From contig NW_014577422.1 of the NCBI RefSeq assembly GCF_000485595.1, forward strand, positions 112,270 through 145,943: a stretch of DNA of 33,674 nucleotides, given 5' to 3'. Each line of letters opens with the position of its first letter. The first letter of the stretch is position 1. The notes beneath the pieces were generated by a model, which had not been told where the DNA came from, did not search any database, and saw only the letters and a program-made list of their open reading frames with translations. Positions 18,401 to 19,727 of the stretch are shown here, piece after piece. Source of the stretch: Priapulus caudatus. Its lineage: Eukaryota > Priapulida > Priapulimorpha > Priapulimorphida > Priapulidae. Position numbers and translations under genes: made by a program.

Positions 18401-19452
18401 CTGGATTGAAAGTAACGGGAATTTTGTTCTCGCCGATCAGTTCTGGACGATGCGAGACATGTCTTGCTCGTTGTCTTGCGAATTCTTATCACAGATCTGC
18501 TCTAGCCTTAATGCATCAATATAAACCTCACGTTTCCCGAACCGCTTTCACTGGTTTGATACTAGTTTGATTCTCGGGTCGTCCATAGCGGAAGGAGTCG
18601 TAGAAACGAGTTTTCGGCTATGAGAGAGATGATGTTTTCTGTGAATGTTGTCAGGCATGGTCAAGTTGAACGTTCAACGCAGGTTCGTGCAGAACAATGG
18701 TTGCCGACGAACCTAGATCCGACGTTTAACGTGCGCGTGTGCCAAGACGGAATCGGGTGTCTTAAACTGTCTTTTCGTACAACTTGTTTGCCCCTATCTG
18801 CCGGAGTGATGTACGGTTAGCTAGCGTGTGATGCGTCTGTCAGCGCTATCACTGTGATATCTCCGCCGCGTTACTGTGTTACAAACTAATACGTGTCAGC
18901 AGAACGGGGTAAGTGCAGGTGCTACTTCCCATGTGGACCAAACCTTTTTCCCGCTCGGGGGGGGGGGGGGGTTGTCGTCGGTGAAGTCCTAGCTGAAGTA
19001 GGTGTTTGAATCTTCCATTACGAATGCAAGAGCGGCGCGGTGACAGGACGTCGGGTAGAAATGCGCGGGACACATCGCTGACTGCTGTCTGATACCGAAG
19101 GGAACTGCAGCACTACGTATGTATCCACAGGCAGAGTGGAGAACATGGCTACATAGGTAGAGCTAGACCTGTGAAGCACAATCGTACTACTAGTACTACT
19201 ACTACTAGATTTAGTATGACTCCGAGTACGAGTGTAAACTAGGTCTCGCCGGCATTTTTGTACTTGTAGTTGTATAGAAGTAGGAAAACGGGTGTAAAGC
19301 AAAGCGCTATGAGCAAAAAAAATCACATATCAATAAACCTTCCGGTAATGACATGAAGCATGCTAATGTTAAAAGAAAGTTAAGTTATTATTTAATACCA
19401 AATCATAATCTTCTTCATCGGCGCACATAAAATCATCATCCATGTCCGACAT
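6267..19452 (-). CDS. COPS2: COP9 signalosome subunit 2 (CSN2), spliced gene, one exon missing
   Basis: CSN2 is the PCI-domain subunit of the COP9 signalosome that docks the complex on cullin-RING ligases so that CSN5 can remove NEDD8. Coding exons on the minus strand, in transcript order: 19452-19399, 13426-13313, 12997-12920, 12334-12209, 11151-10984, 9936-9762, 9020-8921, 8474-8343, 7839-7742, 7350-7268, 6411-6267. All have GT-AG borders and compatible phases, except the join from 7268 (phase 0) to 6411 (phase 2), which needs another exon of length 2 modulo 3. The product starts [18 protein letters not shown] (acidic tail), continues through the helical repeats ([20 protein letters not shown]) and the PCI core ([18 protein letters not shown]), and ends HNTIANKMA. 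The visible exons total 1273 nt. Adding 59 nt gives 443 residues, the human CSN2 length as I recall it. It is divergent from DDA1. No other frame damage is seen, so the gene is probably functional. Confidence 0.97.
6412..7267 (-). other. COPS2 intron interval lacking the expected 59-nt exon
   Basis: Reading all three minus frames here finds no match to the conserved CSN2 block that begins the PCI winged helix (about 20 residues between FISK and the TI-GRIDQ block). The interval contains an AT/GT microsatellite (6521-6558) and a short inverted-repeat element (6953-7096). The exon is either lost from the assembly or absent from the locus. Confidence 0.8.
6953..7096. mobile_element. Short element ending TTTCTGACAAC, copy 1
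   Basis: Imperfect inverted ends (GTTATCGGAAACATCA and TGATGTTTCTGACAAC). The internal sequence is rich in TGACA motifs. It sits in the COPS2 interval where an exon is missing. Confidence 0.6.
7268..7350 (-). CDS. COPS2: COPS2 exon 10 (PCI domain helix)
   Basis: 83 nt: (D)[20 protein letters not shown] then HIPFISK, from the PCI helical bundle. Acceptor TTGCAG, donor GTGCGT. It ends in phase 0, which does not fit the next visible exon (phase 2). Confidence 0.96.
7440..7613. repeat. (GATA/GACA)n microsatellite
   Basis: Mixed GATA and GACA tetranucleotides in a COPS2 intron. The Ser/Leu/Cys-rich frames opposite are artefacts. Confidence 0.95.
7742..7839 (-). CDS. COPS2: COPS2 exon 9
   Basis: 98 nt: [20 protein letters not shown] then [13 protein letters not shown]. 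The Ser codon is split AG|T across the preceding intron. Donor GTAAGC, acceptor TCACAG. This is the start of the PCI domain. Confidence 0.97.
8150..8340. repeat. ~22-bp minisatellite touching a COPS2 splice donor
   Basis: Units of TGACAACTGGGTGACACCGCCA, ending 2 bp from the exon 8 donor (GT at 8342-8341). The most regular units lie at 8268-8335. Confidence 0.9.
8343..8474 (-). CDS. COPS2: COPS2 exon 8
   Basis: 132 nt encoding [20 protein letters not shown] through [14 protein letters not shown]. Acceptor GTGCAG, donor GTGAGC. A ~22-bp minisatellite begins within a few bases of the donor, on its intronic side (8150-8340). Confidence 0.97.
8921..9020 (-). CDS. COPS2: COPS2 exon 7
   Basis: 100 nt encoding [20 protein letters not shown] then [14 protein letters not shown]. 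Enters phase 1 (G|AG) and leaves with AG|G before GTGAGC. Acceptor TTTCAG. Confidence 0.96.
9062..9388. repeat. ~80-bp tandem repeat, about four units
   Basis: Diverged units share CAGTATAACTGCCA, AGACAGGTGTCTGTTCTA and CAGGTTTGA. Related single or double units occur at 29360-29545 and 32290-32402. Lies in a COPS2 intron. Confidence 0.7.
9586..9735. repeat. GT/GC-rich low-complexity tract next to COPS2 exon 6 donor
   Basis: Degenerate TGCGTG, GTGTGC and CATGCG units. Open frames here are compositional. Confidence 0.75.
9762..9936 (-). CDS. COPS2: COPS2 exon 6
   Basis: 58 codons plus one base, [20 protein letters not shown] through [13 protein letters not shown], ending phase 1 before donor GTAGGT. 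Acceptor TTGCAG. The helical-repeat region is strongly conserved. Confidence 0.97.
10013..10066. repeat. Perfect 21-bp hairpin
   Basis: Arms 10013-10033 and 10046-10066 (CAAGAGCTAATAAACACCTT and its complement) around a 12-nt loop, in a COPS2 intron. Confidence 0.95.
10305..10792. mobile_element. Foldback DNA element with ~130-bp arms and TTAA flanks
   Basis: Arms about 10309-10437 and 10660-10788 are near-perfect reverse complements, with ends AGCCGCACAATGCGCATCCA. TTAA stands at both outer borders (10305-10308, 10789-10792), as expected for a TTAA-target transposon (piggyBac-like) or as part of the repeat. No transposase. Confidence 0.85.
10984..11151 (-). CDS. COPS2: COPS2 exon 5
   Basis: 56 codons starting at an internal Met, [20 protein letters not shown] through LKQLHQSCQ. 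Acceptor CAG, donor GTATGC. The introns on both sides carry large foldback elements (10305-10792 and 11413-12044). Confidence 0.97.
11413..12044. mobile_element. Second foldback element with ~127-bp arms
   Basis: Arms 11413-11539 and 11918-12044 are near-perfect reverse complements, with outer ends GGAATAATAGGTCCATTGAT. The centre contains a short open piece [17 protein letters not shown] at about 11665-11715 that may be a transposon-derived remnant. Lies in the COPS2 intron upstream of exon 5. Confidence 0.88.
12064..12147. repeat. (CACG)n microsatellite
   Basis: About 21 perfect tetranucleotide units in a COPS2 intron. Confidence 0.97.
12209..12334 (-). CDS. COPS2: COPS2 exon 4
   Basis: 42 codons, [20 protein letters not shown] through [12 protein letters not shown]. 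Acceptor TTGCAG, donor GTAAGT. This is part of the helical-repeat arm that contacts the cullin-RBX1 module in known CSN structures. A (CACG)n microsatellite lies about 60 bp downstream in the following intron. Confidence 0.97.
12920..12997 (-). CDS. COPS2: COPS2 exon 3
   Basis: 26 codons, [20 protein letters not shown] followed by KINFKL. Acceptor TAG, donor GTGAGT, phase 0 at both ends. Confidence 0.96.
13313..13426 (-). CDS. COPS2: COPS2 exon 2
   Basis: 38 codons from [20 protein letters not shown] to AALTSFQK. Acceptor CAG at 13427-13429, donor GTAAGT, phase 0 at both ends. Nearly invariant against vertebrate CSN2. Confidence 0.97.
13427..14635. other. COPS2 intron 1, right of exon 2, no feature recognised
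   Basis: AT-rich intron sequence with a short (AT)n run near 13841. No exon-like or repeat structure was recognised. Confidence 0.6.
14636..17155 (+). mobile_element. Decayed non-LTR retrotransposon (LINE), reverse transcriptase part and 3' end
   Basis: A 5'-truncated ORF2 lies antisense within COPS2 intron 1. In order: thumb-proximal block [20 protein letters not shown] and [20 protein letters not shown] (14750-14890), RT motif A region [19 protein letters not shown] (~15040-15100), a damaged [19 protein letters not shown] block (15230-15295), the catalytic YADDLVLFS (15351-15377) and a C-terminal Cys-rich tail with CSQCNNGS...LLYDC (16420-16475). Several frameshifts and stops separate these blocks, so it is inactive. 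AATAAA at about 17131 probably ends the 3' UTR. Confidence 0.88.
17263..17272. other. Assembly gap (10 N)
   Basis: Ten N bases directly abut repeat copy 1. In copy 2 the corresponding upstream sequence is a 550-bp purine-only tract, which could be what failed to assemble here. Confidence 0.99.
17273..19174 (+). repeat. 1.9-kb dispersed repeat, copy 1
   Basis: Lies in COPS2 intron 1 and is nearly identical to 23945-25859 in direct orientation. The copies differ mainly by one-base insertions and deletions. Both contain a GGACTCGG-rich stretch with long G runs and a second poly-G run at 18957-18971. No intact reading frame is shared by the copies, so it is not evidently coding. The left edge is cut by the N gap. 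Confidence 0.9.
19175..19398. other. COPS2 intron 1, exon 1 side
   Basis: Begins with an (ACT)n stretch around 19185-19208 and otherwise shows nothing recognisable before the exon 1 donor. Confidence 0.6.
19399..19452 (-). CDS. COPS2: COPS2 exon 1 (start codon, acidic N-terminus)
   Basis: Eighteen codons, [18 protein letters not shown], match the conserved acidic N-terminus of CSN2. The donor GTATTA follows in phase 0. The start is fixed by homology. The intron that follows is about 6 kb and holds a LINE and a 1.9-kb repeat copy. Confidence 0.96.
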
Positions 19453-19724
19453 GATGCTATGTAGCTGGAAATCGAGGGTTATGAACTTTACGTAAAATCG
19501 ACTATAGGGGCAAAATTATTGCGCTAAGCAAACTTCTGAAAATATATATTGTTGATAATAACCGTAATACGGATTAAAATCAAATAAATCTAGTAAAAAA
19601 TATTTTTAAGTATATCAAATTTTTGTTTTTTATAGGGTAAGCTTTCCACACGGATTTTATGTTTCTCCATTGCTTGAACAGTGGTGACACCTACACGCAG
19701 AACAGGAAATCACACACAGTCAAG
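19453..19724. promoter_or_regulatory. Divergent promoter interval between COPS2 and DDA1
   Basis: Only 272 bp separate the two start codons, which face away from each other, so both 5' UTRs and both core promoters must lie here or overlap the first exons. The interval is AT-rich, with no convincing paired TATA boxes and no CpG-dense core. The call rests on gene geometry. Confidence 0.8.
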
Positions 19725-19727
19725 ATG
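19725..19727 (+). CDS. DDA1: DDA1 exon 1: start codon only
   Basis: The ATG is followed at once by the donor GTAAGA, and joins GCA GAC of the next exon to give MAD. An exon coding only the initiator Met is supported by the exact fit to the MADFL start of DDA1. Confidence 0.88.

Follow-up and report, generated by a model that had tools for sequence, protein, structure and literature searches.

Compact head-to-head arrangement of COPS2 and DDA1 in Priapulus caudatus, probably derived from a linkage ancestral to Bilateria

In a stretch of 33,674 nucleotides from the priapulid Priapulus caudatus (contig NW_014577422.1, positions 112,270 to 145,943 of the forward strand, hereafter the window), the genes for COPS2, a subunit of the COP9 signalosome, and DDA1, a component of the CUL4-DDB1 ligase, are disposed head to head around a spacer of 272 bp, and both genes are also found on a shared contig in other phyla. 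The explanation favoured here, to which a probability of roughly 0.55 is assigned, is that COPS2 and DDA1 were already neighbours in the bilaterian ancestor, that they persist as a compact head-to-head pair in Priapulus, and that both are transcribed there from one short open spacer. The elements of the pair are located as follows:

6267..19452, minus strand: COPS2 (COP9 signalosome subunit 2), 12 coding exons, 443 amino acids; coding exon 1 at 19399-19452, exon 2 at 13313-13426
19453..19724: spacer between the COPS2 and DDA1 start codons, 272 bp, 33% GC, 8 CpG, CpG observed/expected ratio 1.11
19725..21556, plus strand: DDA1 coding exons 1-4 out of five (19725-19727, 20897-20974, 21190-21241 and 21495-21556), the terminal exon being separate

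The identities given to both genes in the initial annotation were confirmed. The COPS2 protein is 100% identical over 443 amino acids to P0001, an entry that carries the name COPS2 of P. caudatus and for which the PCI domain PF01399 is listed, and its residues 1-443 align end to end with residues 1-443 of CSN2 in PDB 6r6h_B (E 5e-259), which places it in the COPS2/CSN2 family. All 11 of its introns are of the GT-AG type, and COPS2 scans of prokaryote contigs and viral contigs revealed no relative. Regarding DDA1, whose coding exon 1 consists of the ATG alone (19725-19727), the 104-residue protein is similar over positions 1-83 to DDA1 in PDB 6pai_E (E 4e-35), and the single genome match above the cut-off for PF10172 in an exon-by-exon search is its exon 4, domain and similarity together assigning the gene to DDA1.

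The divergent orientation and the 272 bp between start codons, both already read earlier, also agree with the coordinates. COPS2 starts at 19452-19450 on the minus strand and DDA1 at 19725-19727 on the plus strand, the two 5' ends, as judged on start codons, thus lying on opposite strands and less than 1 kb apart. A segment of 601 bp that includes the spacer (19300-19900) has a single match in the 385-Mb Priapulus caudatus genome. Positions 19175-23944, a stretch without N that runs between the copies of a duplicated block, contain the spacer together with the first COPS2 exon and DDA1 exons 1-4.

Linkage in other species was evaluated by comparing, within each species, the size of the longest contig of the COPS2 protein cluster with that of the DDA1 cluster, using the best 120 of 3921 matches for COPS2, and the best 120 of 465 and the best 120 of 623 for DDA1. 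Species were matched by eye through the one name shown per cluster, rows without a name being unused, and none of the 16 comparable species was dropped; no cnidarian, amphioxus or vertebrate species figured in both lists. As a control, the window's own contig measures 301311 bp, the size listed for both Priapulus proteins. Among the matches listed, COPS2 and DDA1 are on the same contig in nine of the 16 species, which represent five phyla and comprise a priapulid, a nemertean, two annelids, four molluscs and a sea urchin. The shared contigs measure, in bp:

Priapulus 301311; Lineus 29188318; Owenia 37473021; Capitella 538631; Lottia 9386848
Littorina 111777080; Mercenaria 86514381; Dreissena 87507468; Diadema 42587448

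Eight of these nine species rest on one-contig clusters on both sides, and the Diadema clusters hold three. Tight linkage is backed by three rows, namely Priapulus itself, Capitella, in which both genes are on one scaffold of only 0.54 Mb, and Littorina, in which the locus tags of Littorina saxatilis are consecutive (V1264_001755 for COPS2 and V1264_001756 for DDA1). Considering that the linkage is kept across phyla as distant as those of spiralians, an echinoderm and a priapulid, one ancestral bilaterian linkage is the simplest history, and contig membership suggests that it was probably ancestral to Bilateria and lost in arthropods. Thus, where the initial annotation had left the choice between a lineage-specific pairing and an old linkage later broken, the comparison of contigs across species favours the old linkage. 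In human, COPS2 lies on chromosome 15. DDA1 is placed at 19p13.11 in PMC4991419, and these map positions indicate that the linkage would have been lost toward human too.

Several observations weigh against this interpretation. COPS2 and DDA1 are on different contigs in the other seven of the 16 species, all of them arthropods (7 of the 7 arthropods present in both lists), with the following sizes in bp for COPS2/DDA1:

Ptiloglossa 18523587/34667937; Diprion 22560868/22783663; Periplaneta 137670748/197587224
Zootermopsis 825989/103959; Nymphon 944447/667568; Ixodes 91849675/107949926
Limulus, COPS2 288553 versus DDA1 1240620 and 275858341

Since the linkage is missing in every arthropod compared, the arrangement must be dispensable, and Ecdysozoa, the superclade in which Priapulus (Scalidophora) is included, is otherwise negative in the test. 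Five of the seven negatives have one contig on each side, the weakest being Ixodes, with a 29-contig DDA1 cluster, and Limulus, with two DDA1 clusters; the assemblies of Zootermopsis, Nymphon and Limulus are fragmented and count against tight linkage only. On the positive side of the test, in six of the nine species the shared contig has the size of a chromosome and indicates the same chromosome only, and descent from one ancestral chromosome could explain several of these matches together. The 5'-to-5' orientation and the spacing are read in Priapulus alone. Furthermore, the spacer, with the base composition listed above, does not qualify as a CpG island, and none of ten motif words scanned in it clearly serves both genes. 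A splice-acceptor-like site on the DDA1 side would also, if real, put the start of DDA1 transcription elsewhere. This site and a candidate motif of the spacer are:

19487..19496, spacer: palindrome TTTACGTAAA holding TTACGTAA
19621..19636, plus strand: splice-acceptor-like site, score 13.5

We take TTACGTAA to be a bZIP-like word. Three perfect 10-bp palindromes occur in the spacer, compared with a mean of 0.49 in 2000 shuffles (three or more in 0.95% of them); two of the three are plain A/T words, and palindromes are not used as evidence here. The same applies to the TATA-like words seen on both spacer strands, unconvincing in such AT-rich DNA, as well as to CCGGAAG at 19345, within COPS2 intron 1, and AAGATGG over the DDA1 start codon, presumably ETS-like and YY1-like words, respectively.

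To judge from its title, the 2009 work of Olma et al. reportedly names Dda1 from an interaction network of the COP9 signalosome. According to PMC6288126, DDA1 is one of the core components of the CRL4-DDB1 ligase; PMC11286758 indicates that loss of human DDA1 raises the association of CRL4(CSA) with COP9, and PMC4991419 reports that in colon cancer cells an increase or decrease of DDA1 brings about the same change in CSN2 via NF-kappaB. The functional link claimed in the initial annotation is hence supported by PMC11286758, but its description of both proteins as opposing or balancing arms of one pathway fits less well as far as opposition is concerned, DDA1 being a part of CRL4 with an effect on COP9 engagement rather than a simple antagonist. 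COPS2 and DDA1 thus act in one activation cycle, and their joint expression would make sense.

On these grounds, the following sequence of events is proposed. COPS2 and DDA1 would have been adjacent in the bilaterian ancestor, and Priapulus would retain their compact head-to-head form, with divergent transcription out of a single short, open spacer acting as a putative shared promoter. DDA1, a core component of CRL4, and COPS2, one of the subunits of the deneddylase, contribute to the same CUL4-DDB1 ligase cycle and, because both proteins enter that one cycle, a shared promoter opening would match their basal expression and keep it in step. The pair would later have been split in the arthropods compared and, to judge from map positions, in human. 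Co-regulation of COPS2 and DDA1 is plausible.

The flanks of the pair contain what looks like a fault of the assembly, defined by these features:

17263..17272: run of 10 N between COPS2 exons 1 and 2, no other N run occurring in the window
17273..19174: first copy of a duplicated block, 1902 bp
17815..17934, plus strand: intact DDA1 terminal coding exon, open to its stop, inside the first block copy
23945..25859: second copy of the block, 1915 bp, 95% identical to the first, the differences being mostly 1-bp indels
24493..24615, plus strand: second, indel-bearing DDA1 terminal exon, downstream, at the expected place

The intact terminal exon is located upstream of DDA1 exon 1, within COPS2 intron 1, and yields a DDA1 of 104 amino acids whose tail resembles that of P0121, the best-scoring DDA1 homologue among the matches listed. 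On the other hand, the copy at 24493-24615 translates as NAQEEAGSV and then a stop, just as P0122, the public DDA1 model of P. caudatus, ends (74 amino acids, ...KKNAQEEAGSV); the public model follows the faulty second copy. A permuted or trans-spliced DDA1 was rejected in favour of an assembly error, since (i) the second copy is downstream as expected, (ii) the first copy starts directly after the 10-N run, (iii) the aligned copies (1849 of 1946 columns identical) differ by 22 mismatches versus 66 indel runs (1 bp long in 60 cases), and (iv) a 1001-bp probe matches only the two copies in the genome, with no third one. The position of the intact exon upstream of exon 1 is therefore probably an assembly error, perhaps produced when a short-read contig was misordered and the gap was then filled with raw long reads, a real tandem duplication of the block being still conceivable.

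A GA-rich array at 23358-23892 precedes the second block copy and, together with positions 9-1049 (CT-rich and then TGCG-type repeats), constitutes the long low-complexity arrays of the window. COPS2 intron 1 also contains reverse-transcriptase remnants at 14606-15659 (plus strand), the frame 15159-15659 matching PF00078 with E 7e-17 and the frame 14606-15013 falling under the family cut-off. Downstream of DDA1, an open frame at 31122-31469 (minus strand) carries a leucine-rich repeat (PF13516) above the Pfam cut-off.

That this fault might have created the pair by wrongly joining COPS2 and DDA1 is hardly credible. The 10-N gap and the duplicated block lie within 2.5 kb and both separate COPS2 exons 1 and 2, so that the link between these exons crosses the gap, with strand and reading frame fitting and the public protein being identical. 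However, the spacer and the exons on either side of it (COPS2 exon 1, DDA1 exons 1-4) share the stretch free of N, which leaves the pairing unaffected by the fault, and both genes are on one contig in eight other species. A separate or interlocked organisation of promoters must be considered too, in which 19635/19636 would be the splice junction of a DDA1 5' untranslated region or the point where DDA1 receives a spliced leader; DDA1 transcription would then start elsewhere, perhaps within the COPS2 transcription unit. The acceptor-like cut, 89 nt upstream of the DDA1 ATG, scores 13.5, within the range of 15 reference coding acceptors (4.0-14.6), is matched by only one of 2000 dinucleotide shuffles of the spacer, and still scores 11.9 when the 11 COPS2 acceptors alone serve as reference. 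Nevertheless, the site was picked post hoc in an AT-rich sequence, the top upstream donor (19178-19625), with a score of 4.5, is hardly better than the weakest of 15 real donors (4.3-12.5), part of the site reads as TATAAAA facing COPS2 on the minus strand (19634-19628), and no paper was found joining Priapulus, spliced leader and trans-splicing; the counterpart on the COPS2 side is unremarkable, 270 of 2000 shuffles being as good. The site may represent an intron of the untranslated region, a spliced-leader site or chance, and separate promoters are considered unlikely.

A stronger contender, although at somewhat less than even odds, is passive inheritance, according to which early bilaterian neighbours were kept by inertia, without selection for co-regulation, because a break in so short a spacer (272 bp) harms one of the promoters. 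It agrees with the lack of linkage in all seven arthropods and with PMC6292497, where 3,950 of 15,884 neighbouring protein-coding genes of amphioxus (25%) are in bidirectional promoters, with housekeeping functions over-represented among these, and where vertebrates have lost most of the 372 bidirectional promoters considered putatively ancestral. Against it, the partners are unusually close in function, although chance could still bring this about among thousands of gene pairs. Passive inheritance is compatible with a shared promoter and not exclusive of the favoured explanation, in which ancestral neighbours are transcribed from one spacer. Going further, the pair might have been selected as a means of dosage coupling, of bilaterian age or older, in which a single promoter sets the ratio of CRL4 component to deneddylase subunit; lineages that split it, such as arthropods and vertebrates, would then have had to replace the coupling, and this proposal is speculative and rather improbable.

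Gene neighbours kept across phyla, as the COPS2-DDA1 linkage is, are reportedly described as ancient metazoan microsyntenic pairs by Irimia et al. in 2012; in contrast to those pairs, adjacency of COPS2 and DDA1 beyond Priapulus is indicated by the locus tags of one species and one small scaffold. The ancestral bidirectional promoters of chordates, as presented in PMC6292497, resemble COPS2-DDA1 in being old 5'-to-5' neighbours, mostly lost in vertebrates, and differ from it in that the present pair comes from a priapulid and is known from start codons rather than from mapped transcription starts. In SERPINI1-PDCD10 and PREPL-C2ORF34 (PMC1796892, PMC2713978), two genes also diverge from a short spacer; the titles of these papers report promoter function, whereas that of the COPS2-DDA1 spacer is deduced. 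The literature search, which did not extend to supplementary lists, found no paper linking COPS2 and DDA1 with a bidirectional promoter or synteny, and none on a bidirectional arrangement of COPS2 and GALK2; queries for DDA1 as head-to-head returned unrelated titles only, the synonym CSN2 having been searched only with DDA1 and COP9 signalosome. The pair is hence a well-motivated new example, which may already figure in a published supplementary list.

At the level of gene models, the analysis exposes a truncated public DDA1 of 74 amino acids. Should the pair prove both ancestral and co-regulated, the bidirectional promoters broken up in vertebrates would gain a case with functional meaning, co-expression of COPS2 and DDA1 could be compared between phyla that keep the pair and lineages without it, and the arrangement would serve as a natural experiment on whether the proximity of genes enforces the stoichiometry between the COP9 signalosome and the CUL4 ligase.

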